From Cepaea nemoralis (Eukaryota > Mollusca > Gastropoda > Stylommatophora > Helicidae), in the NCBI GenBank assembly GCA_014155875.1, contig JACEFZ010006323.1, positions 339,501 through 403,500 on the forward strand: a stretch of DNA of 64,000 nt. The letters are read 5' to 3'. A program made the translations under genes and the position numbers. Shown piece after piece: positions 7,201 to 53,986 of the stretch; position 1 is the stretch's first letter, and each line of letters opens with the position of its first letter. The notes under the pieces are model-generated. The model saw only the letters and a list, made by a program, of their open reading frames with translations. It was not told where the DNA came from and ran no database searches.

Positions 7201-10200
7201 CTCCAGCTGTCCCGTTATGACAACATACTCCAGCTGTCCCGTTGTGACAACATACTCCAAGTGTCCCGTTGTGACAACATACTCCAGCTGTCCCGCTGTG
7301 ACAATATACTCCAGCTGTCCCGTTGTGACAACATACTCCAGCTGTCCCGTTGTGACAACATACTCCAACATTCCCGTTGTGACAACATACTCCAGCTGTC
7401 CCGTTGTGACAACATACTCCAGCTGTCCCGTTATGACAACATACTCCAACTTTCCCGTTATGACAACATACTCCAAGCTGTCCCGTTGTGACAACATACT
7501 CCAGCTGTCCCGTTATGACAACATACTCCAGCTGTCCCGTTATGACAACATACTCCAGCTGTCCCGTTATGACAACATGCTCCAGCTGTCCCGTTGTGAC
7601 AACATACTCCAGCTGTCCCGTTGTGACAACATACTCCAGCTGTCCCGTTGTGACAACATACTCCAGCTGTCCCGTTGTGACAACATACTCCAGCTGTCCC
7701 GTTGTGACAACATACTCCAGCTGTCCCGTTGTGACAACATACTCCAGCTGTCCCGTTGTGACAACATACTCCAGCTGTCCCGTTGTGACAACATACTCCA
7801 GCTGTCCCGTTGTGACAACATACTCCAGCTGTCCCGTTGTGACAACATACTCCAGCCTTCCCGTTGTGACAACATACTCTAGCCTTCCCGTTGTGACAAC
7901 ATACTCCAGCTGTCCCGTTGTGACAACATACTCCAGCTGTCACGTTGTGACAACATACTCCAACTTTCCCGTTGTGACAACATACTCCAGCTGTCCCGTT
8001 GTGACAACATACTCCAGCTGTCCCGTTGTGACAACATACTCCAGCTGTCCCGTTATGACAACATACTCCAGCTGTCCCGTTGTGACAAGATACACCAGCT
8101 GTCCCGTTGTGACAACATACTCCAGCTGTCCCGTTATGACAACAAACTCCAGCTGTCCCGTTGTGACAACATACTCCAGCTGTCCCGTTGTGACAACATA
8201 CTCCAGCTGTCCCGTTGTGACAACATACTCCAGCTGTCCCGTTATGACAACATACTCCAGCTGTCCCGTTGTGACAACATACTCCAGCTGTCCCGTTGTG
8301 ACAACATACTCCAGCTGTCCCGTTGTGACAACATACTCCAGCTGTCCCGTTGTGACAACATACTCCAGCTGTCCCGTTGTGACAACATACTCCAGCTGTC
8401 CCGTTGTGACAACATACTCCAGCTGTCCCGTTGTGACAACATACTCCAGCTGTCCCGTTGTGACAACATACTCCAACTTTCCCGTTATGACAACATACTC
8501 CAGCTGTCCCGTTGTGACAACATACTCCAGCTGTCCCGTTGTGACAACATACTCCAGCTGTCCCGTTATGACAACATACTCCAGCTGTCCCGTTATGACA
8601 ACATACTCCAGCTGTCCCGTTATGACAACATACTCCAGCTGTCCCGTTGTGACAACATACTCCAGCTGTCCCGTTGTGACAACATACTCCAGCTGTCCCG
8701 TTATGGCAACATACTCCAGCTGTCCCGTTGTGACAACATACTCCAGCTGTCCCGTTGTGACAACATACTCCAGCTGTCCCGTTATGACAACATACTCCAG
8801 CTGTCCCGTTATGACAACATACTCCAGCTGTCCCGTTATGACAACATACTCTAGCCTTCCCGTTGTGACAACATACTCCAGCTGTCCCGTTATGACAACA
8901 TACTCCAGCTGTCCCGTTATGACAACATACTCTAGCCTTCCCGTTATGACAACATACTCCAGCTGTCCCGTTATGACAACATACTCCAGCTGTCCCGTTT
9001 TGACAACATACTCCAGCTGTCCAGTTATGACAACATACTCCAGCTGTCCCGTTGTGACAACATACTCCAGCTGTCCCGTTATGACAACATACTCCAGCTG
9101 TCCCGTTATGACAACATACTCCAGCTGTCCCGTTATGACAACATACTCCAGCTGTCCCGTTATGACAACATACTCCAGCTGTCCCGTTGTGACAACATAC
9201 TCCAGCTGTCCCGTTGTGACAACATACTCTAGCCTTCCCGTTGTGACAACATACTCCAGCTGTCCCGTTGTGACAACATACTCCAGCTGTCCCGTTGTGA
9301 CAACATACTCCAGCTGTCCCGTTGTGACAACATACTCCAGCTGTCCCGTTGTGACAACATACTCCAGCTGTCCCGTTGTGACAACATACTCCAGCTGTCC
9401 CGTTGTGACAACATACTCCAACTTTCCCGTTATGACAACATACTCCAGCTGTCCCGTTGTGACAACATACTCCAGCTGTCCCGTTGTGACAACATACTCC
9501 AGCTGTCCCGTTATGACAACATACTCCAGCTGTCCCGTTGTGACAACATACTCTAGCCTTCCCGTTGTGACAACATACTCCAGCCGTCCCGTTATGACAA
9601 CATACTCCAGCTGTCCCGTTATGACAACATACTCCAGCTGTCCCGTTATGACAACATACTCTAGCCTTCCCGTTGTGACAACATACTCCAGCTGTCCCTT
9701 TATGACAACATACTCCAGCTGTCCCGTTATGACAACATACTCCAGCTGTCCCGTTATGACAACATACTCCAGCTGTCCCGTTATGACAACATACTCCAGC
9801 TGTCCCGTTATGACAACATACTCCAGCTGTCCCGTTGTGACAACATACTCCAGCTGTCCCGTTGTGACAACATACTCCAGCTGTCCCGTTGTGACAACAT
9901 ACTCCAGCTGTCCCGTTATGACAACATACTCTAGCATTCCCGTTGTGACAACATACTCCAGCTGTCCCGTTGTGACAACATACTCCAGCTGTCCCGTTGT
10001 GACAACATACTCTAGCCTTCCCTTTGTGACAACATACTCCAGCTGTCCCGTTGTGACAACATACTCCAACTTTCCCGTTGTGACAACATACTCCAGCTGT
10101 CCCGTTATGACAACATACTCTAGCCTTCCCGTTGTGACAACATACTCCAGCTGTCCCGTTGTGACAACATACTCCAGCTGTCCCGTTGTGACAACATACT

Positions 10201-11184
10201 CCAGCTGTCCCGTTGTGACAACATACTCTAGCCTTCCCGTTGTGACAACATACTCCAGCTGTCCCGTTATGACAACATACTCCAGCTGTCCCGTTGTGAC
10301 AACATACTCTAGCCTTCCCGTTGTGACAACATACTCCAGCTGTCCCGTTGTGACAACATACTCCAGCTGTCCCGTTATGACAACATACTCCAGCTGTCCC
10401 GTTGTGACAACATACTCTAGCCTTCCCGTTGTGACAACATACTCCAGCTGTCCCGTTATGACAACATACTCTAGCTGTCCCGTTGTGACAACATACTCTA
10501 GCCTTCCCGTTGTGACAACATACTCCAGCTGTCCCGTTGTGACAACATACTCCAGCTGTCCCGTTGTGACAACATACTCCAGCTGTCCCGTTGTGACAAC
10601 ATACTCCAGCTGTCCCGTTGTGACAACATACTCCAGCTGTCCCGTTGTGACAACATACTCTAGCCTTCCCGTTGTGACAACATACTCCAGCTGTCCCGTT
10701 ATGACAACATACTCCAGCTGTCCCGTTGTGACAACATACTCCAACTTTCCCGTTGTGACAACATACTCCAGCTGTCCCGTTGTGACAACATACTCCAGCT
10801 GTCCCGTTGTGACAACATACTCCAGCTGTCCCGTTGTGACAACATACTCCAACTTTCCCGTTGTGACAACATACTCCAGCTGTCCCGTTGTGACAACATG
10901 CTCCAGCTGTCCCATTATGACAACATACTCCAGCTGTCCCATTATGACAACATACTCCAGCTGTCCCATTATGACAACATACTCCAGCTGTCCCATTATG
11001 ACAACATACTCCAGCTGTCCCATTATGACAACATGCTCCAGCTGTCCCATTATGACAACATACTCCAGCTGTCCCATTATGACAACATACTCCAGCTGTC
11101 CCGTTGTGACAACATGCTCCAGTTGTCCCGTTGTGACAACATACTCCAGCTGTCCCGTTGTGACAACATGCTCCAGTTGTCCCC
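4257..11184. repeat. 27-bp minisatellite, about 256 units, inside a LINE coding region
   Basis: The unit is CCAGCTGTCCCGTTG followed by TGACAACATACT. Common variants are AACTTTCCCG, GTTATGAC, ACATGCTCC and TCTAGCCTTCCCG. Because 27 is divisible by 3, most frames stay open for long distances and give meaningless repetitive proteins (MTTYSSCPV, LEYVVTTGQ, GVCCHNGTA). The reverse-strand frame LEYVVTTGQ matches the LINE motif ENIVTTGK, and LINE sequence lies on both edges. One-base insertions at about 4953 and 7475 shift the frame. Confidence 0.98.
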
Positions 11185-11216
11185 TTCTGGTGACATGTCC
11201 ATACAATGAACATTCT
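11185..11216 (-). mobile_element. LINE family D, upstream edge of the array
   Basis: Reverse-strand residues YGHVTRRGQLEHVVTTG match the LINE-A motif FGHVMRREALENIVTTG. This small remnant shows what the array expanded from. Unique sequence starts beyond 11216. Confidence 0.6.
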
Positions 11217-28320: not shown

Positions 28321-28326
28321 AACCTA
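28321..28326. repeat. Target-site duplication AACCTA, left copy
   Basis: The hexamer lies flush with the first base of the palindrome and is repeated flush with its last base at 42140-42145. Using it once restores the LINE-E reading frame. Confidence 0.85.
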
Positions 28327-28355
28327 AGTAGTATTATATGATGCCTACTAGCCCC

Positions 28356-28447
28356 AAGGAGAAGGAGCTAAAGGAGCGCTCCTTCAGGAGCTGAAGGAGC
28401 CTGAAGGAGCGGGTCGTGAAGGAGCGCGAAGGCGTCTGAAGGAGCGG
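28356..28447. promoter_or_regulatory. Terminal GAAGGAGC box cluster with hairpins, left end
   Basis: About nine copies of (G)AAGGAGC lie within 30-120 bp of the element end. AAGGAGCGCTCCTT is a perfect palindrome, and GCTCCTTC pairs with GAAGGAGC across a 7-nt loop. Reiterated boxes and hairpins this close to a terminus could be protein-binding or replication-start sites, but that role is inference. Confidence 0.5.
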
Positions 28448-29160
28448 GTTATGTCTGCTCCTTCTGTGGTGTGATATTGACTCCTTCTAACACCTGCCTA
28501 GTTGTGTCTTTGGCTTGTTAACCTCGGTATTTTTTGGCGGGTAAATTTTTTTAAAAAGAAAAAAAGTCTGATCTAATGAGCTGGATGCTGTTAATGTCTG
28601 TGGTCAGGGTGGAGTGGAAGGAGCCGGCGTAAATAGTAAGCGCAAAGAAGGTGGTGGCCGGTGGTGCGACGTGTATAGTGACGTCATCGGTCCCTCGTAG
28701 TTGTATGTTTGGGCTATTAGGGTCGAATTTTTGGTGGAAAAGTATGGTCTAAGGGGTAGCGGGGGTATTAGAGGTGATGTCTCCGCACCTCCTTGTCGCA
28801 TCTTTACCTTGTTAAGATCGTTGTTTTGGCAGGAAAAGTATGTTTTTTTTTAAATTAAAAATAATTTAATTTTTTTTTTTAATTTAAAAAATATTTCAAT
28901 GGAAAATAAAAGATATTGGTTAATAGTGGTTGGGTGGGGCATAAAATCTATTATCAAACGGTGTTAGCTCATTAAATGAAAATCTTAAAAAGAGTAAAGA
29001 TGGCCGCTAGTTCGTGTTGTAGTGGTATGGCTTAGTGTTATTTGATGTTAAGGGGTGGGTGAGTGAAAGCGTATCTTGATGAGTGCTTCCAAACAATATC
29101 ATCATAGGTATCAGATCGTTAAAGAAACAAGTAAAGATGGCCGTCGGTGTCCTCCGTGGG

Positions 29161-29187
29161 TGCCGGGTTCGAATCCCGGTAGGGCTG
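29161..29187 (+). other. tRNA T-arm-like motif, left arm
   Basis: CCGGG-TTCGAAT-CCCGG is a perfect T-arm with a B box. No matching acceptor or D-arm lies at tRNA distance, so it is a relic or mimic and not a tRNA gene. A weaker GGGTCGAATCTCGG follows at about 29327. The mirror copy is at about 41280-41306. Confidence 0.4.
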
Positions 29188-30678
29188 TTTAGTGGTAGAA
29201 GAAATATTGATGTTTTTGTTACTTAGTTGTGATGGCGTTAGCGGGTGGTAGTAATCAGGCTATGTGTAGCAAAGGAGAGGTGGTGTGTTGGTTGAAGCTT
29301 AGGTGGTACCCCAGACGAGATGACAGGGTCGAATCTCGGTGCTGTGCCACTGGTAAGGGTAATAGTCGTCAGAGTGAGTGGGGTGTCTAGTTAGTCATAC
29401 GGGTTAGGATTAGGGACGGTCTGTCTTTTCATGTCGCTGTGTCCACAAGTCCAAGGGGAAAACAGGCAGCCGATCTCACCTTTGTACCTACGAGTCACAA
29501 AATATAACCTAACTTAAAAATCAGAATATGATTCATAACCTCAACAGGTGTTGCCAAAAATCAATACTCATTTTCATAACGGCTAATCCAGGGGCTTATC
29601 GTCGTCGTAATGACTAAGATGGGGTATTGATATTACTAATATCTCCGTCGTTGCAAATAGTTCGCGATATTAATAAAGGTTCATATAAAGGCTGGTATGG
29701 GATTAAGAGATTAACACCTATTGTTGGGCCATCCACAGAAAATCAATACCAACACGCTAGATTCTTCTCATAATTGCGACCAGTGGCTTATAGATATAAC
29801 CGTTATTGCAGACGCAGCTATGTGCAGACTAATCTACCAGGTCACAGGTCTATGCCGTATCGACAAAAACGGTGAATGAAAGCTAAGGAATATTCACTAT
29901 ACAAAGCAGTTTCTACCAGCCGATCAGATCGGGGAAACCAGACAGGACAACCTCTTGTTACGAGTCCACAACAGCAGATATCGTGTATAAAAGACGACCA
30001 GCCTATGTCATGCAGAAGTACCTCTATCTGACAACACCAAAACAGAGCTCACCATGTGGCAACTCGCTAATGTTAAGTTGGATGTCGATAAATCTTTCAC
30101 ATTTTCGTTATGATTCTTCATGTCGACACAACACTAACCTAACAAAAGAAAAACCTAGTATAATACAGGGGGATATATAGGACTAGATGCATATAACTGA
30201 CGAGGAAACAATAAAACATTGTCTTAATATTTCATATTAGGTTATGTCTCCCTTCTCTCACTTTTCTATGTCCGAGTCGTCCTGTGGCTACCGAGTAAAG
30301 CTAAAGAACACCTCGACATCAATATAACATAAACCGGTCTCGAAAAGCAGCATAGGCGCGTGTAAAAAAGTCATCACATTGTCCGACTAAGCCTTTCTCA
30401 TAGTCATAGGGGAGAGATGTGATCACCGACGCTAGTCAGGGCAATACGTCCTACGACAGTTAATATAATGCGTGAAGTCAAATTTGCGACTGCAAAATAT
30501 GTTTTCATGTCATATGTATATAAGAAGCTATATACAGGTGTTTTCTAAGGACAAATTTCTCCATGTCACGGTGTAAAAATTACAGATGTCGTTTACATTT
30601 ATACATTAAGAGGGGGGGGAAAAGTCTGTTGTAGACACGGTATTTCATATTTTCTTGTGGGACTTGGTCATTTGTTGT

Positions 30679-30895
30679 TCTATCTTGTCATGGTATGTAT
30701 ATTTTCCACACATCTCCACTGATGTTTTTAACTTGTCTACCCATTGTCCTCGCTTCATATTCATACAATAGTATAGGTCCTATGTAGTGATTAAACACTC
30801 TTTTTCTCCTTGTAATTGACATCTTTATATTAGTCATGTTTTCTACCTTACCAAAGACTATCTTCAACATATCGAACATTGGTCTATCCTCTCAA
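30679..30895 (-). mobile_element. LINE fragment (family A-like) in the left arm
   Basis: Reverse-strand FDMLKIVFGKVENMTN and RKRVFNHYIGPILLYEYEAR align in pattern with AFQKMKSILCNKSLSMN and RKRVLKCYIEPVLMYGSES of the LINE-A copy at 63480-64000. It is a diverged ORF2 piece carried inside the palindromic element. Confidence 0.6.
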
Positions 30896-31697
30896 AGACA
30901 ACTTCTTCTTGTAGTCTCTTGGCTACATTTTTCCCGTATCAAGCTTCATGTCTCTACTCGTCTGTATTAGTATGTTAGAAGTAAACCAACATCACATAAG
31001 ATAACCATATATTACCACAATGTATACAAAAAAGAAGCAATACACATAGACACAGTATATAAATATAGTACTAAATAGACAGTAGTATAAAGAATTCAAG
31101 TATTTTATTACAAGGTAAATTACACAAATTAAATACAGTGATTTGTATAAAATATCACACACCTGTGTTACATTACCAAATAAGTACAAAACACAAGGGA
31201 ATGAATACGTTGGTGTATTACTTACATACATATGGACCATACAATACACCGGCACGTCCGCTATGGGACCTAACTCGTGTGAAGGTATGTCTATAACATA
31301 CAGAATTGTGTGTGGGGTAATAACTACGATGTCTGTCTTTCATCATGTATCTGACCTGATGGCGTACCACCGCAAGACTTCGTTCACTTGTGGTCTACAA
31401 CCAATCAGGTTAAATGTCTTAGAATTTACCCACATTTTATGTTAGGCAAGCATTGATTGGGTGTCAACTATGCGGTAGGCGGGGCTTACTGTATGTAATA
31501 TATATCCCACTCACCACATCTCACTCACTTTGTGATGTACGCAAGAACGACGAAAGATTGGATCTTCAGTTTTGTGGTTATTAGGTGACTATGTGCCTTC
31601 AAGTATAGAAAGTTAGTCAGTCACCGTTTTGTTTCAGTATTCACGGACTATCAGCCATATACGGACATATGGATGTAGCGTCTCTTTCTTCCAGTTC

Positions 31698-31883
31698 TTA
31701 GACATTCACAACTGCCTTGGAAGATTTATCAACCAGATTCTTACCCACACGCATCCAAAGTGTAAGCAACCTCATTATTCTGCCATAGTTTACAACGTCA
31801 TCTGTAAAGAAGTCATCGGCGCTTGAAACAAAGACAGAGAAAAAGTGCTCAGGATTGATACGGTTTACTAGACTAGTGAACAT
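31698..31883 (-). CDS. Small frame resembling the BH1 region of Bcl-2 family proteins, left arm
   Basis: A 61-codon frame with its own ATG reads FVSSADDFFTDDVVNYGRIM and then RLLTLWMRVGKNLVDK. The pattern D-x-F-x-D-x-V-x-N-(Y/W)-G-R-I followed by a hydrophobic helix is the BH1 signature of Bcl-2 proteins, which control mitochondrial apoptosis and are often carried by large DNA viruses. A full Bcl-2 fold needs about 150 residues. BH3 and BH2 are not evident here, so this is either an exon, a decayed gene or chance. A neighbouring frame on the same strand (31913-32050) in another phase holds a helix-like LNIFSFYLSPKVAD that might be an N-terminal part. It is divergent from the zinc-finger gene, about 165 bp away. 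The protein is identical in the other arm. Confidence 0.35.
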   Translation of the reverse strand: MFTSLVNRINPEHFFSVFVSSADDFFTDDVVNYGRIMRLLTLWMRVGKNLVDKSSKAVVNV

Positions 31884-32048
31884 ACATCTTGTTGTTTGAG
31901 TATTTGACTTTCCTATCTAGCCAACATCGTGTCAGCTACCTTTGGTGAAAGATAGAAACTAAATATATTCAACGCTATATTCATCGGCTCGCTGTGAACG
32001 TGTATCAAGTCGACTGTTGCTTGTCTCAGTAGCAAGTCGCTAGTGAAC

Positions 32049-32888
32049 ATGTCTAAAAATACAAAGATGTCAACTAGGCAATCATCTGAGAACCACTTAT
32101 GTGCAACCTGTGGGAAAGGTTTCACTGAAAATCGCAATCTGCTTCGCCATACTCTGACCAGTCACAATACCAAGGAGCAAGTGTATTCGTGTCACATTTG
32201 TGGTCATATATTTAACAGGAAAGACAATCTACAATGCCACATTACAAAGAAACACACTACACCAGGAGTATCACCCAGTGTAATACCAGCAGACGCTTCA
32301 ACACCCGCTTCAGCAACACTACGTAAGAGACATGTGACTACTAATAGTGATGTGGCAGTCAGCGAGAAGAAGACTAAACAAGACGAAAACTCCCATCCAG
32401 TCAGTGACACACAACCCAAGGATGAAGCGGCTTCTTTACACACTCTTCCAGATAATATTAGACAAATATACACCGACAACTGGAGTAGTATCAAAACACA
32501 TCACAAGATAAACAAATATATGTCTGTCTATACATTTTATATTAGCCCACACACAATCCACCCTAAAGACTGGACATCTACCTTGAACAAGATCTTTACC
32601 ATTCAAAAGAGCATATTCAAAATCAACTTTAGTTATCATATAGTCCTTAGGCACAGCGAAACAGACGCTCTTCGGTTGTATCACGCATCTTCAAATAATG
32701 CTTCTGTCTTAGAACTTCCACAACTAATCAAAAGTAGACAAGACTTTGATGAATTTATCAAAATAGTACACGAAAATGACGTTCTTACCTACGCTATGCA
32801 ACAACGTCCAAATACCAAATACACTACAGAGACGATTCCAGCTATATGTTTTTATCTCTATCATATCCCAGAATTCCGGCTTGTTTAA
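32049..32888 (+). CDS. Two-finger C2H2 zinc-finger protein with unrecognised C-terminal domain, left arm
   Basis: This intact frame has 279 codons plus stop. I start at the first ATG (32049); the open frame begins two codons earlier with GTG. Residues 18-39 (C-x2-C-x12-H-x4-H, within CATCGKGFTENRNLLRH) and 48-69 (CHICGHIFNRKDNLQCH) are classical C2H2 fingers, implying nucleic-acid binding. A Ser/Thr/Lys-rich linker (about 70-130) with EKKTKQ could hold a nuclear localisation signal. The rest (about 133-279) is a compact, mixed alpha/beta-looking region starting DNIRQIYTDNWSSIKTHH. I believe I have seen this arrangement in virus-like or large transposon proteins of animals, but cannot name a family. 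Its preservation in both arms, with identical protein, suggests recent insertion or selection. It is the best gene candidate of the element, perhaps a replication or regulatory factor. No intron is needed. Confidence 0.8.
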   Translation: MSKNTKMSTRQSSENHLCATCGKGFTENRNLLRHTLTSHNTKEQVYSCHICGHIFNRKDNLQCHITKKHTTPGVSPSVIPADASTPASATLRKRHVTTNSDVAVSEKKTKQDENSHPVSDTQPKDEAASLHTLPDNIRQIYTDNWSSIKTHHKINKYMSVYTFYISPHTIHPKDWTSTLNKIFTIQKSIFKINFSYHIVLRHSETDALRLYHASSNNASVLELPQLIKSRQDFDEFIKIVHENDVLTYAMQQRPNTKYTTETIPAICFYLYHIPEFRLV

Positions 32889-33183
32889 TAAATAACCATC
32901 CTTTTATGACCCACGTTGGGCACAACTGTGCATGATCATACTAGATATAACATCCCATATTTAACCATCCGTTTTGTATACTGGCATTACGCTTGTTCAT
33001 TTTTTGTGTAAAATTTGCTGGAAATACTGTAAAATAAACAGTTATATGTATTATAAGTGCGTTCACTTGTTGGTTTTTAGTGTTGACGGTACATATGAGT
33101 GTCATGTGGTGAGCGGGTGTTACATGTTGATGGCCAAGTCAAGAAATATCTCAGCCATTCTTATAAAAATTAGGAAAATATGT

Positions 33184-34070
33184 TAACCTAATGAGAAAAA
33201 TATTGACCAAGTGAAGAAATATCTCAACCATACTTATGAAAAGGAGAAAAATGTGTTATCCAAAAGGGAAAAATATTGTCCAAGTAAAGACATGTTTCAA
33301 CTAGTCTTATAAATATGTCGTCTAAACTCATGAAAAGGAGAAAAATGTGTTATCCAAAAGGGAAAAATATTGACCAAGTGAAGAAATATCTCAACCATAC
33401 TTATGAAAAGGAGAAAAATGTGTTAACCTAATGAGAACAATATTGCCCAAGTGAAGAAAAATTTACACAAAACTTATAAAACTTAGGAAAATGTGTTAAC
33501 CTAATGAGAAAAATATTGCCCAAGTGAAGAAAAATTTACACAAAACTTATAAAACTTAGGAAAATCTGTTAACCTAATGAGAAAAATATTGCCCAAGTGA
33601 AGAAAAATTTACACAAAACTTATAAAACTTAGGAAAATCTGTTAACCTAATGAGAAAAATATTGCCCAAGTGAAGAAAAATTTACACAAAACGTATAAAA
33701 CTTAGGAAAATGTGTTAACCTAATGAGAAAAATATTGCCCAAATGAAGAAAAAATTTACACAAAACTTATAAAACTTAGGAAAATGTGTTAACCTAATGA
33801 GAAAAATATTGCCCAAGTGAAGAAAAAATTTACACAAAACTTATAAAACTTAGGAAAATGTGTTAACCTAATGAGAAAATATTGCCCAAGTGAAGAAAAC
33901 ATTTACACCAAACTTATGAAAAGTATGAAAATTTGTTAACCAAAGGGGAAAAAATATGGGCTAAACTATGAAGTATGTTGACCGAAGTAAGAAAATGTGT
34001 TAACCAAATGGGGAAAAATGTTGGCCAAAACATGAAACATCTTAACCAAACTTATAAATATCTCGTGTAA
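33184..34070. repeat. 73-bp tandem array, left arm (one unit more than the right arm)
   Basis: Repeated TTAACCTAATGAGAAAAATA, then TTGCCCAAGTGAAGAAAAA and TTTACACAAAACTTATAAAA, with more diverged units at both edges. The variant AAAATCTGTT occurs twice here and once in the right arm, which locates the extra unit. Confidence 0.92.
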
Positions 34071-34375
34071 ACTTTTAAATAAGGAGGAAAAAAAATATTG
34101 CGTCTGTAGTTATGTCAAAAGTATCTTGAACTTTTATCTGAACAGACATTTCACAAGACATAATCATCAACGTCAACACTTTCCCTCTTTTACGTTACCG
34201 AAAGTTTCAACTTACCATTCCAGAGTAGCTGCTAAAGACGCACTTATACATGCTAATCACCCATCTGGCCACACTCTTGGTTGTTGTCTTCTAACATAAA
34301 ATATCTCTGTCTTTCGTAGATGTCTTCACAACTTTTCCATGTCACAGCCCCAAGAACTGCAAACCTCCATTGTAC

Positions 34376-34717
34376 ATGAGCTCCAATAAAACAGTCATAA
34401 CAACATTTATGGTAATGCAATCTGTGGCTCCACCTGGGATAGTTTCAATATCATCTGAGTATTCGTCAGCAAAGAGCTATTACCCATGGCTGACATCTTC
34501 AACTTTCTATACCACAATGACACTAACCTTCCATTGTTCCATCTTTCAACAATACAAAGGGTGTTCTCGAAGTCTAACTAACATAATATTTCTTACTTTG
34601 GCCACCTCTTTCACACGTTGTCATTTCACAGCTGCGATAACGACAAGTCTGCAACCAACACTGTCTGTTATGAAGTCGACCTTTCTTAAAACCACGTCTG
34701 TCTTAATGAGCCCTTAA
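34376..34717 (+). CDS. Unassigned 113-codon frame, left arm
   Basis: The frame starts at ATG 34376 and is rich in Ser and Thr. I recognise no domain. It exists in both arms with one Ile/Leu difference, which any frame in a palindrome would show, so coding status is doubtful. Confidence 0.15.
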   Translation: MSSNKTVITTFMVMQSVAPPGIVSISSEYSSAKSYYPWLTSSTFYTTMTLTFHCSIFQQYKGCSRSLTNIIFLTLATSFTRCHFTAAITTSLQPTLSVMKSTFLKTTSVLMSP

Positions 34718-34904
34718 ATACCCTCTACCAGATCTTATAACCGACTTTCAACGTTTCATACCAAATAACATTAACACTCTCTTTGATTACAGAACAACCG
34801 ATTTTCTGCTGACTAGGCAGGTTTCTCAATCTAATGGAGATAAGTCACCTGTCCTCCTAACATACTAGGCACTATTCTAGACAACGAATATGGTCATCAA
34901 CCAG

Positions 34905-35040
34905 CACCCCTAAGAAGAACTTGAAATCAGCAACAGAGATTGGGTTCCTGAGACGAATTCCTTGGACTACCAGAGTAACTAACGCTGATCGCCTAAAAGA
35001 GCCTACAAAACATAGAGCCTTATATACATCAAACACAACA
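34905..35040 (+). mobile_element. LINE-A fragment near the palindrome centre, left arm
   Basis: ATEIGFLRRIPWTTRVTNAD followed by RLKEPTKHRALYT matches ATEMWFLRRMLRIPWTARVT and CLKEANETRTLYT of LINE-A at 63.7-63.9 kb. It runs into the telomere-like tract. Confidence 0.75.
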
Positions 35041-35052
35041 AACTCTTTCTTA

Positions 35053-35117
35053 CTAACCCTAACTATACATCATCTAACCCTAACCCTAACCCCTAACCCT
35101 TAACCCTAACCCTAACC
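35053..35117. repeat. Telomere-like (CCCTAA)n tract, left arm
   Basis: Seven CCTAACC-type units with slips (CCCCTAACCC, CCCTTAACCC) match the animal telomere motif. The C-rich strand reads toward the centre, so this is not the arrangement expected of a head-to-head telomere fusion. Confidence 0.9.
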
Positions 35118-35230
35118 ATACAGCAAAAACAACAAACTGTCTTAAGAGACATAGATACAAACCAGTGTTAGAAATGGAAAAAGTTAAATTTTAATTAAAA
35201 TTTAAAACTAATAAATCGCAATTTTATTGC

Positions 35231-35309
35231 TCGCTTCACTTAATATACAGATATAGGCTAAGTATAGGTATAAGTTAGGTATAAGACGTATATCGAGGTT
35301 ACATCTTGC
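35231..35309. other. 79-bp spacer at the centre of the palindrome
   Basis: The unpaired sequence between the arms (TCGCTTCACTTAATATACAG at its start, ATCGAGGTTACATCTTGC near its end) contains short direct repeats of AGGTATAAG. It does not resemble a sequencing hairpin adapter. Confidence 0.9.
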
Positions 35310-35422
35310 GCAATAAAATTGCGATTTATTAGTTTTAAATTTTAATTAAAATTTAACTTTTTCCATTTCTAACACTGGTTTGTATCTATGTCTCTTAAGA
35401 CAGTTTGTTGTTTTTGCTGTAT

Positions 35423-35487
35423 GGTTAGGGTTAGGGTTAAGGGTTAGGGGTTAGGGTTAGGGTTAGATGATGTATAGTTAGGGTTAG
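35423..35487. repeat. Telomere-like (TTAGGG)n tract, right arm
   Basis: Mirror of 35053-35117, reading TTAGGG away from the centre. Confidence 0.9.
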
Positions 35488-35499
35488 TAAGAAAGAGTT

Positions 35500-35635
35500 T
35501 GTTGTGTTTGATGTATATAAGGCTCTATGTTTTGTAGGCTCTTTTAGGCGATCAGCGTTAGTTACTCTGGTAGTCCAAGGAATTCGTCTCAGGAACCCAA
35601 TCTCTGTTGCTGATTTCAAGTTCTTCTTAGGGGTG
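35500..35635 (-). mobile_element. LINE-A fragment, right arm
   Basis: Mirror of 34905-35040 on the opposite strand. Confidence 0.75.
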
Positions 35636-35822
35636 CTGGTTGATGACCATATTCGTTGTCTAGAATAGTGCCTAGTATGTTAGGAGGACAGGTGACTTAT
35701 CTCCATTAGATTGAGAAACCTGCCTAGTCAGCAGAAAATCGGTTGTTCTGTAATCAAAGAGAGTGTTAATGTTATTTGGTATGAAACGTTGAAAGTCGGT
35801 TATAAGATCTGGTAGAGGGTAT

Positions 35823-36164
35823 TTAAGGGCTCATTAAGACAGACGTGGTTTTAAGAAAGGTCGACTTCATAACAGACAGTGTTGGTTGCAGACTTGTCGT
35901 TATCGCAGCTGTGAAATGACAACGTGTGAAAGAGGTGGCCAAAGTAAGAAATAGTATGTTAGTTAGACTTCGAGAACACCCTTTGTATTGTTGAAAGATG
36001 GAACAATGGAAGGTTAGTGTCATTGTGGTATAGAAAGTTGAAGATGTCAGCCATGGGTAATAGCTCTTTGCTGACGAATACTCAGATGATATTGAAACTA
36101 TCCCAGGTGGAGCCACAGATTGCATTACCATAAATGTTGTTATGACTGTTTTATTGGAGCTCAT
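35823..36164 (-). CDS. Unassigned 113-codon frame, right arm
   Basis: Mirror of 34376-34717 with one residue changed. No recognisable domain. Confidence 0.15.
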   Translation of the reverse strand: MSSNKTVITTFMVMQSVAPPGIVSISSEYSSAKSYYPWLTSSTFYTTMTLTFHCSIFQQYKGCSRSLTNILFLTLATSFTRCHFTAAITTSLQPTLSVMKSTFLKTTSVLMSP

Positions 36165-36469
36165 GTACAATGGAGGTTTGCAGTTCTTGGGGCTGTGACA
36201 TGGAAAAGTTGTGAAGACATCTACGAAAGACAGAGATATTTTATGTTAGAAGACAACAACCAAGAGTGTGGCCAGATGGGTGATTAGCATGTATAAGTGC
36301 GTCTTTAGCAGCTACTCTGGAATGGTAAGTTGAAACTTTCGGTAACGTAAAAGAGGGAAAGTGTTGACGTTGATGATTATGTCTTGTGAAATGTCTGTTC
36401 AGATAAAAGTTCAAGATACTTTTGACATAACTACAGACGCAATATTTTTTTTCCTACTTATTTAAAAGT

Positions 36470-37283
36470 TTACACGAGATATTTATAAGTTTGGTTAAGA
36501 TGTTTCATGTTTTGGCCAACATTTTTCCCCATTTGGTTAACACATTTTCTTACTTCGGTCAACATACTTCATAGTTTAGCCCATATTTTTTCCCCTTTGG
36601 TTAACAAATTTTCATACTTTTCATAAGTTTGGTGTAAATGTTTTCTTCACTTGGGCAATATTTTCTCATTAGGTTAACACATTTTCCTAAGTTTTATAAG
36701 TTTTGTGTAAATTTTTTCTTCACTTGGGCAATATTTTTCTCATTAGGTTAACACATTTTCCTAAGTTTTATAAGTTTTGTGTAAATTTTTTCTTCATTTG
36801 GGCAATATTTTTCTCATTAGGTTAACACATTTTCCTAAGTTTTATACGTTTTGTGTAAATTTTTCTTCACTTGGGCAATATTTTTCTCATTAGGTTAACA
36901 GATTTTCCTAAGTTTTATAAGTTTTGTGTAAATTTTTCTTCACTTGGGCAATATTTTTCTCATTAGGTTAACACATTTTCCTAAGTTTTATAAGTTTTGT
37001 GTAAATTTTTCTTCACTTGGGCAATATTGTTCTCATTAGGTTAACACATTTTTCTCCTTTTCATAAGTATGGTTGAGATATTTCTTCACTTGGTCAATAT
37101 TTTTCCCTTTTGGATAACACATTTTTCTCCTTTTCATGAGTTTAGACGACATATTTATAAGACTAGTTGAAACATGTCTTTACTTGGACAATATTTTTCC
37201 CTTTTGGATAACACATTTTTCTCCTTTTCATAAGTATGGTTGAGATATTTCTTCACTTGGTCAATATTTTTCTCATTAGGTTA
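36470..37283. repeat. 73-bp tandem array, right arm
   Basis: Mirror of 33184-34070 with one unit fewer. Confidence 0.92.
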
Positions 37284-37578
37284 ACATATTTTCCTAATTT
37301 TTATAAGAATGGCTGAGATATTTCTTGACTTGGCCATCAACATGTAACACCCGCTCACCACATGACACTCATATGTACCGTCAACACTAAAAACCAACAA
37401 GTGAACGCACTTATAATACATATAACTGTTTATTTTACAGTATTTCCAGCAAATTTTACACAAAAAATGAACAAGCGTAATGCCAGTATACAAAACGGAT
37501 GGTTAAATATGGGATGTTATATCTAGTATGATCATGCACAGTTGTGCCCAACGTGGGTCATAAAAGGATGGTTATTTA

Positions 37579-38418
37579 TTAAACAAGCCGGAATTCTGGG
37601 ATATGATAGAGATAAAAACATATAGCTGGAATCGTCTCTGTAGTGTATTTGGTATTTGGACGTTGTTGCATAGCGTAGGTAAGAACGTCATTTTCGTGTA
37701 CTATTTTGATAAATTCATCAAAGTCTTGTCTACTTTTGATTAGTTGTGGAAGTTCTAAGACAGAAGCATTATTTGAAGATGCGTGATACAACCGAAGAGC
37801 GTCTGTTTCGCTGTGCCTAAGGACTATATGATAACTAAAGTTGATTTTGAATATGCTCTTTTGAATGGTAAAGATCTTGTTCAAGGTAGATGTCCAGTCT
37901 TTAGGGTGGATTGTGTGTGGGCTAATATAAAATGTATAGACAGACATATATTTGTTTATCTTGTGATGTGTTTTGATACTACTCCAGTTGTCGGTGTATA
38001 TTTGTCTAATATTATCTGGAAGAGTGTGTAAAGAAGCCGCTTCATCCTTGGGTTGTGTGTCACTGACTGGATGGGAGTTTTCGTCTTGTTTAGTCTTCTT
38101 CTCGCTGACTGCCACATCACTATTAGTAGTCACATGTCTCTTACGTAGTGTTGCTGAAGCGGGTGTTGAAGCGTCTGCTGGTATTACACTGGGTGATACT
38201 CCTGGTGTAGTGTGTTTCTTTGTAATGTGGCATTGTAGATTGTCTTTCCTGTTAAATATATGACCACAAATGTGACACGAATACACTTGCTCCTTGGTAT
38301 TGTGACTGGTCAGAGTATGGCGAAGCAGATTGCGATTTTCAGTGAAACCTTTCCCACAGGTTGCACATAAGTGGTTCTCAGATGATTGCCTAGTTGACAT
38401 CTTTGTATTTTTAGACAT
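37579..38418 (-). CDS. Two-finger C2H2 zinc-finger protein, right arm
   Basis: Mirror of the gene at 32049-32888, with identical translation. The start ATG is at 38418 on the reverse strand. Having two intact identical copies facing each other means the element could make one dimer-type DNA-binding protein from either side. Confidence 0.8.
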   Translation of the reverse strand: MSKNTKMSTRQSSENHLCATCGKGFTENRNLLRHTLTSHNTKEQVYSCHICGHIFNRKDNLQCHITKKHTTPGVSPSVIPADASTPASATLRKRHVTTNSDVAVSEKKTKQDENSHPVSDTQPKDEAASLHTLPDNIRQIYTDNWSSIKTHHKINKYMSVYTFYISPHTIHPKDWTSTLNKIFTIQKSIFKINFSYHIVLRHSETDALRLYHASSNNASVLELPQLIKSRQDFDEFIKIVHENDVLTYAMQQRPNTKYTTETIPAICFYLYHIPEFRLV

Positions 38419-38583
38419 GTTCACTAGCGACTTGCTACTGAGACAAGCAACAGTCGACTTGATACACGTTCACAGCGAGCCGATGAATATAGCGTTGAAT
38501 ATATTTAGTTTCTATCTTTCACCAAAGGTAGCTGACACGATGTTGGCTAGATAGGAAAGTCAAATACTCAAACAACAAGATGT

Positions 38584-38769
38584 ATGTTCACTAGTCTAGT
38601 AAACCGTATCAATCCTGAGCACTTTTTCTCTGTCTTTGTTTCAAGCGCCGATGACTTCTTTACAGATGACGTTGTAAACTATGGCAGAATAATGAGGTTG
38701 CTTACACTTTGGATGCGTGTGGGTAAGAATCTGGTTGATAAATCTTCCAAGGCAGTTGTGAATGTCTAA
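38584..38769 (+). CDS. BH1-like small frame, right arm
   Basis: Mirror of 31698-31883, with identical translation and the key residues NYGRI. See the left-arm entry for the limits of the Bcl-2 call. Confidence 0.35.
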   Translation: MFTSLVNRINPEHFFSVFVSSADDFFTDDVVNYGRIMRLLTLWMRVGKNLVDKSSKAVVNV

Positions 38770-39211
38770 GAACTGGAAGAAAGAGACGCTACATCCATAT
38801 GTCCGTATATGGCTGATAGTCCGTGAATACTGAAACAAAACGGTGACTGACTAACTTTCTATACTTGAAGGCACATAGTCACCTAATAACCACAAAACTG
38901 AAGATCCAATCTTTCGTCGTTCTTGCGTACATCACAAAGTGAGTGAGATGTGGTGAGTGGGATATATATTACATACAGTAAGCCCCGCCTACCGCATAGT
39001 TGACACCCAATCAATGCTTGCCTAACATAAAATGTGGGTAAATTCTAAGACATTTAACCTGATTGGTTGTAGACCACAAGTGAACGAAGTCTTGCGGTGG
39101 TACGCCATCAGGTCAGATACATGATGAAAGACAGACATCGTAGTTATTACCCCACACACAATTCTGTATGTTATAGACATACCTTCACACGAGTTAGGTC
39201 CCATAGCGGAC

Positions 39212-39475
39212 GTGCCGGTGTATTGTATGGTCCATATGTATGTAAGTAATACACCAACGTATTCATTCCCTTGTGTTTTGTACTTATTTGGTAATGTAAC
39301 ACAGGTGTGTGATATTTTATACAAATCACTGTATTTAATTTGTGTAATTTACCTTGTAATAAAATACTTGAATTCTTTATACTACTGTCTATTTAGTACT
39401 ATATTTATATACTGTGTCTATGTGTATTGCTTCTTTTTTGTATACATTGTGGTAATATATGGTTATCTTATGTGA
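39212..39475 (+). CDS. Unassigned hydrophobic 87-codon frame, right arm (mirror 30992-31255)
   Basis: The C-terminal half is rich in I, L, V, Y and F and could form one or two membrane helices (YLICVIYLVIKYLNSLYY). AATAAA lies at 39358 inside the frame. AT-rich composition alone could give this pattern, so it is only a candidate. Confidence 0.2.
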   Translation: MPVYCMVHMYVSNTPTYSFPCVLYLFGNVTQVCDILYKSLYLICVIYLVIKYLNSLYYCLFSTIFIYCVYVYCFFFVYIVVIYGYLM

Positions 39476-39571
39476 TGTTGGTTTACTTCTAACATACTAA
39501 TACAGACGAGTAGAGACATGAAGCTTGATACGGGAAAAATGTAGCCAAGAGACTACAAGAAGAAGTTGTCT

Positions 39572-39788
39572 TTGAGAGGATAGACCAATGTTCGATATGT
39601 TGAAGATAGTCTTTGGTAAGGTAGAAAACATGACTAATATAAAGATGTCAATTACAAGGAGAAAAAGAGTGTTTAATCACTACATAGGACCTATACTATT
39701 GTATGAATATGAAGCGAGGACAATGGGTAGACAAGTTAAAAACATCAGTGGAGATGTGTGGAAAATATACATACCATGACAAGATAGA
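39572..39788 (+). mobile_element. LINE fragment, right arm
   Basis: Mirror of 30679-30895. Confidence 0.6.
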
Positions 39789-41279
39789 ACAACAAATGAC
39801 CAAGTCCCACAAGAAAATATGAAATACCGTGTCTACAACAGACTTTTTCCCCCCTCTTAATGTATAAATTTAAACGACATCTGTAATTTTTACACCGTGA
39901 CATGGGGAAATTTGTCCTTAGAAAACACCTGTATATAGCTTCTTATATACATATGACATGAAAACATATTTTGCAGTCGCAAATTTGACTTCACGCATTA
40001 TATTAACTGTCGTAGGACGTATTGCCCTGACTAGCGTCGGTGATCACATCTCTCCCCTATGACTATGAGAAAGGCTTAGTCGGACAATGTGATGACTTTT
40101 TTACACGCGCCTATGCTGCTTTTCGAGACCGGTTTATGTTATATTGATGTCGAGGTGTTCTTTAGCTTTACTCGGTAGCCACAGGACGACTCGGACATAG
40201 AAAAGTGAGAGAAGGGAGACATAACCTAATATGAAATATTAAGACAATGTTTTATTGTTTCCTCGTCAGTTATATGCATCTAGTCCTATATATCCCCCTG
40301 TATTATACTAGGTTTTTCTTTTGTTAGGTTAGTGTTGTGTCGACATGAAGAAATCATAACGAAAATGTGAAAGATTTATCGACATCCAACTTAACATTAG
40401 CGAGTTGCCACATGGTGAGCTCTGTTTTGGTGTTGTCAGATAGAGGTACTTCTGCATGACATAGGCTGGTCGTCTTTTATACACGATATCTGCTGTTGTG
40501 GACTCGTAACAAGAGGTTGTCCTGTCTGGTTTCCCCGATCTGATCGGCTGGTAGAAACTGCTTTGTATAGTGAATATTCCTTAGCTTTCATTCACCGTTT
40601 TTGTCGATACGGCATAGACCTGTGACCTGGTAGATTAGTCTGCACATAGCTGCGTCTGCAATAACGGTTATATCTATAAGCCACTGGTCGCAATTATGAG
40701 AAGAATCTAGCGTGTTGGTATTGATTTTCTGTGGATGGCCCAACAATAGGTGTTAATCTCTTAATCCCATACCAGCCTTTATATGAACCTTTATTAATAT
40801 CGCGAACTATTTGCAACGACGGAGATATTAGTAATATCAATACCCCATCTTAGTCATTACGACGACGATAAGCCCCTGGATTAGCCGTTATGAAAATGAG
40901 TATTGATTTTTGGCAACACCTGTTGAGGTTATGAATCATATTCTGATTTTTAAGTTAGGTTATATTTTGTGACTCGTAGGTACAAAGGTGAGATCGGCTG
41001 CCTGTTTTCCCCTTGGACTTGTGGACACAGCGACATGAAAAGACAGACCGTCCCTAATCCTAACCCGTATGACTAACTAGACACCCCACTCACTCTGACG
41101 ACTATTACCCTTACCAGTGGCACAGCACCGAGATTCGACCCTGTCATCTCGTCTGGGGTACCACCTAAGCTTCAACCAACACACCACCTCTCCTTTGCTA
41201 CACATAGCCTGATTACTACCACCCGCTAACGCCATCACAACTAAGTAACAAAAACATCAATATTTCTTCTACCACTAAA

Positions 41280-41306
41280 CAGCCCTACCGGGATTCGAAC
41301 CCGGCA
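41280..41306 (-). other. tRNA T-arm-like motif, right arm
   Basis: Mirror of 29161-29187: CCGGG-ATTCGAA-CCCGG. Confidence 0.4.
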
Positions 41307-42018
41307 CCCACGGAGGACACCGACGGCCATCTTTACTTGTTTCTTTAACGATCTGATACCTATGATGATATTGTTTGGAAGCACTCATCAAGATACGCTT
41401 TCACTCACCCACCCCTTAACATCAAATAACACTAAGCCATACCACTACAACACGAACTAGCGGCCATCTTTACTCTTTTTAAGATTTTCATTTAATGAGC
41501 TAACACCGTTTGATAATAGATTTTATGCCCCACCCAACCACTATTAACCAATATCTTTTATTTTCCATTGAAATATTTTTTAAATTAAAAAAAAAAATTA
41601 AATTATTTTTAATTTAAAAAAAACATACTTTTCCTGCCAAAACAACGATCTTAACATGGTAAAGATGCGACAAGGAGGTGCGGAGACATCACCCCTAATA
41701 CCCCCGCTACCCCTTAGACCATACTTTTCCACCAAAAATTCGACCCTAATAGCCCAAACATACAACTACGAGGGACCGATGACGTCACTATACACGTCGC
41801 ACCACCGGCCACCACCTTCTTTGCGCTTACTATTTACGCCGGCTCCTTCCACTCCACCCTGACCACAGACATTAACAGCATCCAGCTCATTAGATCAGAC
41901 TTTTTTTCTTTTTAAAAAAATTTACCCGCCAAAAAATACCGAGGTTAACAAGCCAAAGACACAACTAGGCAGGTGTTAGAAGGAGTCAATATCACACCAC
42001 AGAAGGAGCAGACATAAC

Positions 42019-42110
42019 CCGCTCCTTCAGACGCCTTCGCGCTCCTTCACGACCCGCTCCTTCAGGCTCCTTCAGCTCCTGAAGGAGCGCTCCTTTAGCT
42101 CCTTCTCCTT
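42019..42110. promoter_or_regulatory. Terminal GCTCCTTC box cluster with hairpins, right end
   Basis: Mirror of 28356-28447. Confidence 0.5.
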
Positions 42111-42139
42111 GGGGCTAGTAGGCATCATATAATACTACT

Positions 42140-42145
42140 AACCTA
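42140..42145. repeat. Target-site duplication AACCTA, right copy
   Basis: Flush with the last base of the palindrome; pairs with 28321-28326. Confidence 0.85.
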
Positions 42146-43145
42146 CTTGCATGGTCAAACTAATTGACTTGCTCCTTTCTAATAAAATCTGTTGCTGCTA
42201 TAACTCCCACTCCTGATTTCTTTATTTCTGATCTTATCTCTTCTTGACGCGTTGAGTATTCTTCTCAGGAATATAATTTCTGTTGTTGTGATTTATCTTT
42301 TCTCTTTTTCTGTCATTGTCAAGGTTTGGCATTGGTAGCATAGAGTTGGTAGGAAGATTGTGTTGTAAAGTGCTTTCTTAGTAGTTATTGACACATGTTT
42401 GTTTTTAGTATTGGTGTCATTTGTCCAATGAGTTGGTTTGCCTTATTGCATCTATTTTCGATCTCGTCTTCTCATCTACCATTTGATGATATTATACTTC
42501 CTAGGTACTTGAAACTCTTTTTCTCAAGAGATGTTCGTTCAGGTGAATTGTTTTTTTTTTCTTCTTTAGTTATAGTCATTACCTCTGTTTTACTTGTGCT
42601 AATTTTCATGTTATGTTCCCTACACATTTCGTTTAGACTATTCATGTGGTCTTGTAATTCAGTTTCTGATTTTGCTATTAGTGCTTGGTCGTGGGCAAAC
42701 AGGAGTTCTCTAATGGTTAGATATGCAGATGGTTCTTCTTCTGTGTTCTCGTCATGCGGTATTCTTGCGGTCTCTGCTTGGCTGGTTTCTTTACATATGT
42801 TGTCTATATATGTTATGAACAAGAGAGGGGACATGACACAACCTTGTCGTACTTTAGATCTTATGGTGAAGGGTTCTAAGTGTCCTCCAGTTGCCCTCAC
42901 TATGCATTCAGCGTTGTTGTATAAGCTTGTACTTAGGTTTGTTAGATGTGTACTCACACCATATTGGATTTCCCACAGCTTGTTTCTATCTACTCTATCA
43001 AATGCCTTTTCTTGATCGACAAAGGCTAAGTAGAATGTTTCATTGAATTCGATTGATTTTTCTACAAGTTGTCTAAGAGCAAAAATGGCATCTGTGCATC
43101 CTTTGTTTTTCCTAAATCCAAGTTGTGTTGAGTAACATAATGTAA
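42146..43145 (-). mobile_element. LINE family E, reverse transcriptase part (upstream half of the split element)
   Basis: Reverse-strand motifs in order: GFRKNKGCTDAIFALRQL, then FVDQEKAFDRVDR (RT motif with the first catalytic Asp), VRQGCVMSPLLFITYID, LLFAHDQALIAKSETEL, KTEVMTITKE and FKYLGSIIS. This is a non-LTR reverse transcriptase from the fingers to the thumb. The usual (Y/F)ADD box reads FAHD, so one catalytic Asp is lost, and stops occur toward 42146. The product would have copied RNA at a nicked target, but this copy is dead. The C-terminus continues at 28320-28104. Confidence 0.85.
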
Positions 43146-52475: not shown

Positions 52476-52640
52476 ATTTGTTTTGCTCTCGCTTTCTTTT
52501 ACCTCATGTTTATTGCATACATGCAGAGATTTCTTTTTTCCCGCACATTTATGTAATTGTCATTGGCGATCAATCAAATACACCAAACTCCATCTTCTCC
52601 TCTAACTTTCCATCTGCAGCAGCTAGTTGTCCTGCAGCTG

Positions 52641-53195
52641 GGGCAATGACAATAGTTTGGGCAGTGACAGACAACAGTTGGGGCAGTGACAACAGTTGGG
52701 ACAGTGACAACAGTTGGGGCAGTGACAACAGTTGGGACAGTGACAACAGTTGGGGCAGTGACAACAGCTGGGGCAGTGACAACAGTTGGGACAGTGACAA
52801 CAGTTGGGACAGTGACAACAGTTGGGGCAGTGACATCAGTTGGGGCAGTGACAACAGTTGGGGCAGTGACAACAGTTGGGGCAGTGACAACAGTTGGGGC
52901 AGTGACAACAGTTGGGGCAGTAACAACAGTTGGGGCAGTGACAACAGCTGGGGCAGTGAAAACAGTTGGGGCAGTGACAACAGTTGGGGCAGTGACACAG
53001 TTGGTGCGGTGACAATAGTTAGAGCAGTGACAAAAATTGGGGCAGTGACAACAGTTGGGGCAGTGACAATACTTGGAGCAGTGACAACAGTTGGGGCAGT
53101 AACAATAGTTGGGGCAGTGACAATAGTTAGGGCAGTAACAATAGTTGGGTCAGTGACAACAGTTGGGGCAGTGACAACAGTTGGGGCAGTGACTA
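52641..53195. repeat. 18-bp minisatellite, about 31 units
   Basis: The unit is CAGTTGGGGCAGTGACAA. Six-residue periodic frames (NSWGSD on plus, LSLPQL on minus) follow from the unit length and are not gene evidence. Edges show older units (ATAGTTAGAGCAGTGACA). From 53196 to 53985 nothing is assigned. Confidence 0.97.
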
Positions 53196-53986
53196 ACATT
53201 TGAGGCAGCAGCTGGAATAGCAGCAAATGTAGCACACAGAGAACATCCTACCTCACTGATCAGCTCTCATACATTGAGACTACCCAGAGCACCAGAAAAG
53301 AGTCACGGCCAGAAGGGCTCAACAGAAGCTGCAGCTGCCTTGAGATACATCGCAATTTTGATTGCAACTTGGTCATCAGCCAAGATGAGGCAGAACACAC
53401 CAACTAGTTATAATATAAATAGCTTGCAGTTATCCAAGTCGTTGTGCCGTTTTTAGCTAATGTGGGATCTCAAAGGCGCTGTTGATCTCGAGGGACAACC
53501 AAGTGATACAACCAATATCACCTTACAGTGTTTATATCACAAATTATATTCCTTGCATGAGTGTTGGCTCGCGAATTATAACCCCTGCATGAGTGTTATT
53601 TTGCGAACTGCAAGTCCTACCTTCGTTTTACTTTACGAATTTAAGCACCTTCTATCTGTTTATAATTAGATATATTTAACACGTGACAACTAATTTCGTT
53701 TTTTTTTCTTATTTTAGCACACAACCTCAAAAGACGCCTGGCGTTATTTGATACGAACCTGATGTAACTTTGGATCAGTGACCGCACCTCTATATTAGCC
53801 CTTATCTGCGACAGGCAGATTTATATTATGTGACCCTGAGAATTTTTTTTTTTTTTTTCGCAAGAGAGATGAGTGTACAAGATATTAACAAAACAGATTT
53901 AGAAGTGGTATTACCGAGGGCAATATTAAAGCAGCAGGATGAAGTGCATTATTTTTACATATTACTTTTTTTTTCAATAACGAAAA

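Follow-up and report, generated by a model that had tools for sequence, protein, structure and literature searches.

The window analysed here, a stretch of 64,000 nucleotides (nt) from the gastropod Cepaea nemoralis that maps to G000:C5870 in the 3.47-Gb assembly, contains a palindromic element of 13,813 bp (28327-42139) that moves as a whole. It is made of a left arm of 6904 bp, a central spacer of 79 bp and a right arm of 6830 bp, figures that had been given in an initial annotation and that proved exact to the base on re-measurement. Both ends stop flush against the same hexamer, AACCTA, where the inverted symmetry halts, again as first described, and the termini read AGTAGT...ACTACT. Once a 73-bp minisatellite and a poly-C tract are masked, 5,985 bases can be compared between the arms, and 7 of them are substituted; a few 1-bp insertions or deletions (indels) occur as well, and the gap in length corresponds mainly to one minisatellite unit. 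The claim that each arm holds an intact gene was likewise borne out: the same protein of 279 amino acids (aa), counted from the first ATG, is encoded in both. The features of the element are as follows:

28321..28326, no strand: left copy of the target site duplication, AACCTA, read in the sequence
28327..35230, plus strand: left arm, 6904 bp
28327..28332, plus strand: terminal (AGT)2 motif, as described in passages of PMC8097293
28361..28464, no strand: cluster of seven GAAGGAGC/GCTCCTTC octamers behind the left terminus
31701..32158, minus strand: remnant of a Bcl-2-like gene in two reading frames, with a mirror copy near 38309-38766
32049..32888, plus strand: 279-aa gene of the left arm, two C2H2 zinc fingers plus a domain
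33131..33957, no strand: 73-bp minisatellite of the left arm, copy number unequal between arms
34911..35032, plus strand: fragment resembling a non-long-terminal-repeat (non-LTR) retrotransposon, 70-73% like three other places in the window, mirrored in the right arm
35074..35117, plus strand: (CCCTAA)n tract of about 7 units, mirrored at 35423-35466
35231..35309, plus strand: central spacer, 79 bp
35310..42139, minus strand: right arm, 6830 bp, reverse complement of the left arm
36583..37333, no strand: 73-bp minisatellite of the right arm
37579..38418, minus strand: 279-aa gene of the right arm, identical protein
42002..42105, no strand: matching GAAGGAGC/GCTCCTTC octamer cluster behind the right terminus
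42134..42139, plus strand: terminal (ACT)2 motif, as described in passages of PMC8097293
42140..42145, no strand: right copy of the target site duplication, AACCTA, read in the sequence

The (CCCTAA)n tracts, close to the palindrome centre, adjoin the fragment resembling a non-LTR retrotransposon.

The initial annotation had taken the palindrome itself to be a mobile element, for which further copies with the same ends and 6-bp duplications should exist in the genome, and such copies were found. A comparison of the outer 1 kb of the arm with the host assembly produced 2343 first-look candidates. Scoring the best 40 of these gave 42 matches, and the 40 long ones lie at 29 loci. Eleven of these loci, including the window, show two end matches in inverted orientation, 10-14.2 kb apart. 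For 12 of the 18 single end matches an inverted partner lies in the fetched stretch, and for four more (C6508, C2536, C21766 and C23251) the partner is nearer, shortened or truncated; C13936 and C24657 are cut by contig ends and therefore fall outside the testable set. An inverted second arm, shortened in some cases, is present at 27 of the 27 testable loci, and arms existing only singly, the outcome that had been named as speaking against a palindromic mobile element, number zero in this part of the search. A second search started from the inner 179 bp; of its 1022 first-look candidates 40 were scored, every one of them a centre. In 38 the arm continues inverted directly across the spacer (for 34 bp only in C4977), and direct reading of the remaining two revealed 416 bp of inverted arm after a deletion in C26218 and 26 bp in C26083. 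Since 12 loci are common to both lists, the family occupies at least 57 assembly loci, some of which could be haplotigs of one site. The scored matches are the best-matching ones, so that old or divergent copies are under-sampled. Moreover, contig C24657 (L038) starts inside a palindrome centre, with arm position 6903 at its base 32; the assembly thus breaks at these elements, and copies may be undercounted.

Both junctions could be read at 18 loci, and 16 of them carry a perfect 6-bp duplication, every one different: AACCTA (window), TACATG, CGTAAC, TACAAG, GTCACA, CAAATG, CTCGCA, GGTAAT, TTCACC, GGTATG, AAGGAT, GCTCTC, TAGGTG, GCTAAA, AGTGTG and AACATC (C6508). At C5460 five of the six bases match, and C3050 is the twin of C6378, with one shared site and one base less on the left. 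The right end is lost in C19163 and C12166, and at seven loci at least one junction is unread. The six bases to the left of C12166 (L047), CTCGCA, equal the duplication of C23657 (L020) in flanks that look different, a coincidence due to chance or to a shared target preference. These data show that the mobile unit is the whole palindrome and that its insertions created new 6-bp target duplications. A chance origin is excluded by dozens of further loci at which ends, arms and centre are found again next to different target duplications. It might still be argued that a fold-back read or a collapsed repeat had produced a false palindrome, given that palindromes are difficult to assemble and that contig C24657 starts at a palindrome centre. 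Such an artefact is hardly credible, however, as substitutions and a minisatellite unit distinguish the arms, the palindrome ends exactly at the target duplication, and dozens of loci with different flanks and duplications show the same architecture. A comparable fate awaits the proposal of a decayed provirus, one inverted defective genome that integrated once and spread by segmental duplication. Duplicated loci or haplotigs do occur, since C6378 (L040) and C3050 (L044) share the same target duplication and a flank of about 97% identity (the pair represents either haplotigs or a segmental duplication, so that the 27 loci may be 26 insertions), but sixteen loci with different perfect duplications already contradict this scenario, which we regard as exceedingly improbable.

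The ends of the element give a first indication of its kind, which the initial annotation had not named. The arrangement (AGT)2//(ACT)2 occurs at both ends in 17 of the 18 loci with both junctions read, the left end of C11472 having lost one AGT; outside these 18, the right end of C19163 is decayed and that of C12166 is missing. In C7210 (L034) three ACT units close the right end while two AGT open the left one, which would fit slippage or jumping back at the terminal repeat. Passages of PMC8097293 describe (AGT)2//(ACT)2 as the end motif met most often in vertebrate Mavericks, where it is thought to serve jumping back in protein-primed replication, and 6-bp duplications as a mark of intact Mavericks. 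Just inside the termini, all 15 ends examined have 4-7 GAAGGAGC octamers in the first 200 bp, and not one GAAGGAGC/GCTCCTTC octamer occurs in the 50,175 bp that surround the element in the window. These octamers could be putative origin-binding sites, perhaps for a zinc-finger protein.

A candidate for such a protein, with two C2H2 zinc fingers recognised by Pfam, is encoded by the 279-aa gene. Its predicted structure (mean of the predicted local distance difference test, pLDDT, 76.7 for the whole) includes a well-modelled domain at about residues 123-281, most blocks of which score 75-96. A search with the full-length protein retrieved a single relative, P0001 (E 1.2e-16), and a two-sequence profile that included P0001 in the query gave 25 matches among 1991 candidates, from P0001 to P0025 (1.6e-10). 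In one of them, P0017 (239 aa, 48%), the end falls close to that of the window protein, so that the short form seems to exist elsewhere. On the other hand, P0005 and P0009 have the shared domain near the N-terminus followed by a long downstream continuation, with an OTU-like-looking stretch and a DIET motif that we take to be the exonuclease-like motif of a family B polymerase; Pfam confirmed neither OTU nor polymerase motif in these two proteins. In this line, the family B DNA polymerase (PolB) of adintoviruses is described with an OTU domain in passages of PMC11071296. The 279-aa gene has its domain in common with the N-termini of proteins that resemble polymerases of the adintovirus/Maverick type. 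A Foldseek comparison with viral models placed first a C2H2 protein of Drosophila-associated adintovirus 2 (E 6.7e-7, probability 1.00), the sole match of 331 at E<=0.001, with the polymerase B of MELD virus in 15th place (E 0.027). Among 18 arms of the main subfamily the gene is open in 11 (278-279 aa), both arms of C5521 end at 234 aa, and 5 are frameshifted by 1-bp indels; at least one open arm remains in 8 of the 9 copies. Together, ends and gene point to the Maverick/Polinton-adintovirus group.

The size of the element was also considered. Sixteen copies had both ends read and were measured, of which 10 span 13,250-14,218 bp and 6 span 7.4-11.2 kb, the shortest figure being that of C6508 (about 7.4 kb); C16833, with one end unread, reaches about 14.4 kb by its matches. 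Three Drosophila-associated adintoviruses, one complete and two near-complete, measure 13.3-14.6 kb according to passages of PMC8363768, and intact vertebrate Mavericks measure 12.7-24.6 kb, with a mean of 16.9 kb, according to those of PMC8097293.

The family comprises subfamilies that have the outer 1.9-2.4 kb of the arm in common (88-94%) and differ in the middle, C16096 having also the inner 1.2 kb in common (92%). The middle carries exchangeable genes, the best defined of which are the following:

L024:3161-3667, minus strand: intact Bcl-2-like gene of C20299, 169 aa (Pfam Bcl-2 E 3.3e-15, 56.9 bits)
L028:3086-3559, minus strand: intact Bcl-2-like gene of C16096, 158 aa (Pfam Bcl-2 E 3.1e-18, 66.6 bits)
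L040:3415-3918: 168-aa frame of C6378
L040:4911-5306: 132-aa two-finger protein of C6378

Both Bcl-2-like genes exceed the Pfam gathering cut-off of 31.4 bits, and between them the proportion of nonsynonymous differences (pN) is 0.091 and that of synonymous differences (pS) 0.115. Such a gene is an unusual cargo for a transposon. The same two copies also hold a frame of 280-385 aa without a Pfam match, and C5339 has relatives of both the Bcl-2-like gene and this frame by sequence similarity. The 168-aa frame and the 132-aa two-finger protein are found together in C6378, C3050 and C26234, and the former also in the stretch of C16833 that was read. In the window, the Bcl-2-like remnant gives a Pfam Bcl-2 match at 31701-31913 (E 5e-5, 24.2 bits, under the cut-off), and 31701-32028 is 74% like the intact gene of C20299.

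How do these elements relate to known systems? With Mavericks/Polintons they share the (AGT)2//(ACT)2 ends, the 6-bp target duplications (perfect at 16 of 18 loci), inverted terminal repeats and a polymerase-N-terminus-like gene that reads toward the centre, as the polymerase module of vertebrate Mavericks does (passages of PMC8097293). In that account intact vertebrate Mavericks have terminal repeats of 46-1,447 bp and eight core genes (seven in one frog), whereas here the inverted repeats of 6.8-6.9 kb each (6,904 and 6,830 bp in the window) fill the element, in which no core gene is complete. Indeed, neither a protein-primed PolB nor an integrase, ATPase, protease or capsid protein was recognised in the arm, where the longest stop-to-stop frame has 296 aa and the next 140 aa; Pfam found no core gene in 10 of the other 68 listed frames, a result that leaves room for short fragments. 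On both counts, repeat size and core genes, the element is not an autonomous Maverick. The likeness to adintoviruses lies in the length of the Drosophila-associated genomes (13.3-14.6 kb in passages of PMC8363768, against 13.25-14.22 kb in 10 of 16 copies), in a tentative fold match to the C2H2 protein of Drosophila-associated adintovirus 2 and in the OTU-like-looking sequence into which relatives of the 279-aa gene run. Unlike Adintoviridae, with their OTU-bearing PolB, hexon and chromodomain integrase, the element is palindromic throughout and has no arm frame long enough for a hexon or a full polymerase. We consider it very likely that the family consists of non-autonomous, fully palindromic elements derived from the Maverick/Polinton-adintovirus type, which are copied and integrated by means of a postulated helper.

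Foldback transposons such as Galileo, FB and Tetris consist mostly of inverted repeats with internal tandem repeats and little unique centre, and the window element is built in the same way, mainly of long inverted repeats around a short centre. One might accordingly take it for a DNA transposon of the foldback type and of a different superfamily, which a DDE transposase moves in trans and which carries an adintovirus-like gene by chance. The swapping of cargo among subfamilies would suit this idea, and 6-bp duplications are also made by other superfamilies, Ginger2 being described as preferring 6-bp targets. Foldback transposons have, however, other ends and other enzyme superfamilies, and we know of none with an intact gene per arm at this size. 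The doubled AGT terminus is the commonest end motif, and the 6-bp duplication a mark, of intact vertebrate Mavericks in the passages of PMC8097293 cited above; the 279-aa gene falls among adintovirus-like proteins, and adintovirus genomes are similar in length to most of the measured copies. An origin among foldback transposons is for these reasons quite improbable.

A further question is how the two arms are kept alike. The 79-bp spacer is present in 9 of 10 further copies opened, with the window sequence on either strand in 8 and one difference in C16096; including the window and allowing one difference, it is common to 10 of 11 copies, and in C20299 it is still recognisable within an asymmetric, partly deleted centre. 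The common centre refers to two subfamilies, with that of C6378/C26234 outside this comparison. Divergence between the arms of one copy ranges from 0.05 to 2.3% in the 11 copies aligned, with the maximum in C19163, whereas shared blocks differ by 5-7% between subfamilies: from C16096 the window copy is separated by 143/2023 differences in the outer shared block and by 73/1231 in the inner one, and from C20299 by 98/2037 in the outer block, compared with 8/2061 and 0/1254 between the arms of C16096 in the same blocks. With a centre common to the subfamilies, the simplest view is that the palindrome predates their divergence and that its arms have been evened since. In the nine main-subfamily copies there are 256 within-copy differences (counted per copy; 134 in C19163). 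Private differences make up 162 of them; 49 recur as an arm difference in another copy, and for 45 both states are seen fixed in other copies. One shared tract, at 29304-29573, is found in the same phase in C22389 and C25896 and in the opposite phase at five sites in C5521. To judge by the shared differences, a heterozygous dimer seems to have been passed on; states that other copies have fixed in both arms point to later arm-to-arm conversion, and the 2.3% of the old copy C19163 suggests that chromosomal conversion is slow. Own arms are mutually closest in 6 of the 11 copies (window, C7668, C23657, C5460, C20299 and C16096), and in C16247 they tie with another copy's arm; the relationships across copies form a mosaic pattern.

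The palindrome might instead not be inherited: a Maverick-type element with one arm could remake it in each cycle, if its replication folded back at a fixed hairpin site. Near-identical arms within copies, in the face of 5-7% between subfamily blocks, are what such a process would leave, and a fixed fold-back site would likewise yield a constant spacer. Remaking is nevertheless unlikely, as 49 of the 256 within-copy differences are shared by other copies, unless conversion between loci placed them there, and none of the 27 testable loci has a single arm.

Outside the element, the window contains sequences of other kinds. A 6.9-kb tandem array at 4257-11201 has self-matches mostly shifted by multiples of 27 bp; it is open in several frames, so that the long mechanical open reading frames there are no evidence of genes. 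A shorter tandem array lies at 52478-53235, with one frame translating to repeated SDNSWG. Fragments similar to long interspersed nuclear elements (LINEs) and to mariner neighbour the element: just to its right, a reverse transcriptase fragment at 42472-42957 (minus strand; Pfam RVT_1 7.1e-17), and at 61415-62008 (minus strand) a fragment recognised by eye as mariner-like transposase, with no Pfam match at 0.01.

Altogether, the element works like a satellite of a Maverick or adintovirus. A single event before the subfamilies separated, in which one end of an ancestral element was copied by folding back, is the probable source of the original palindrome. A helper Maverick or adintovirus would supply in trans a protein-primed DNA polymerase and an integrase, and the polymerase would jump back on the AGT repeats to begin synthesis. 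Since the displaced strand is self-complementary, it could snap into a 6.9-kb hairpin with a 79-nt loop, which would restore a double-stranded origin, and mismatch repair or copying inside the hairpin would even out the arms. The integrase would then insert the linear product with a 6-bp duplication, the dimer being inherited as a dimer and its arms evened out later. Packaging in the helper capsid may also occur, with which the usual length of 13.25-14.22 kb (10 of 16 copies) fits. These steps are proposed on account of the Maverick-type ends and of the established replication of the adenovirus type. In this regard, symmetric defective adenovirus genomes, such as the Ad12 SYREC recombinants from laboratory virus stocks, are a parallel in belonging to a protein-primed replicon type and in having one viral end at both palindrome ends, but the elements of C. 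nemoralis are a family in the germline, divided into subfamilies and flanked by target duplications. Y-chromosome palindromes also have arms held alike within a copy; they are chromosomal duplications without target duplications, whereas the window family transposes.

Several observations weigh against this interpretation. Protein priming, the hairpin and packaging are inferred rather than observed. The link of the 279-aa gene to a polymerase is indirect: Pfam finds only zinc fingers in the protein, and the fold match to adintovirus 2 has 10% identity, template modelling (TM) scores of 0.33/0.18 and a root-mean-square deviation of 19.3, low TM-scores being such as loosely joined domains would give. 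Of 18 arms, 7 have the gene frameshifted or shortened, and clear purifying selection on it is not visible within the family, with nonsynonymous:synonymous counts of 8:2, 7:2 and 6:3 in the three most distant comparisons, of the window with C23657_R, C19163_L and C5460_R, respectively. The argument from packaging size is weak, because 6 of the 16 measured copies have 7.4-11.2 kb and intact vertebrate Mavericks average 16.9 kb. Moreover, another copy's arm is closer than the own one in 4 of 11 copies (C22389, C5521, C25896 and C19163), the shared arm differences could also stem from conversion between loci, and homogenisation could equally be due to chromosomal gene conversion, from which the hairpin route is not separable here.

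A family of jumping elements with near-identical reverse halves is a form not found in the literature searched, and no description of palindromic or of non-autonomous Polintons was found in its open-licence texts. In its widest form, which we put forward as possible though doubtful, the element would be a germline satellite virus with a self-complementary genome of one adintovirus length that borrows the polymerase, integrase and capsid of its helper; its single strand, as a hairpin, would need no second-strand origin and would let the arms repair each other, and its exchangeable duplicate cargo would include a Bcl-2-like gene, with a conceivable role in the survival of host cells, and zinc-finger proteins, as potential competitors for replication origins. 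Mavericks and adintoviruses stand between transposons and viruses, and a large family, met here solely as palindromes, whose arms stay alike while subfamilies diverge would show that integrating elements with protein priming give rise to stable satellites. The differences between arms, their sharing and their loss across dozens of insertions form a natural record of how a self-complementary genome is copied, and make it possible to test whether the satellite is packaged and whether its cargo, Bcl-2 and zinc fingers, serves the satellite, the helper or the host.

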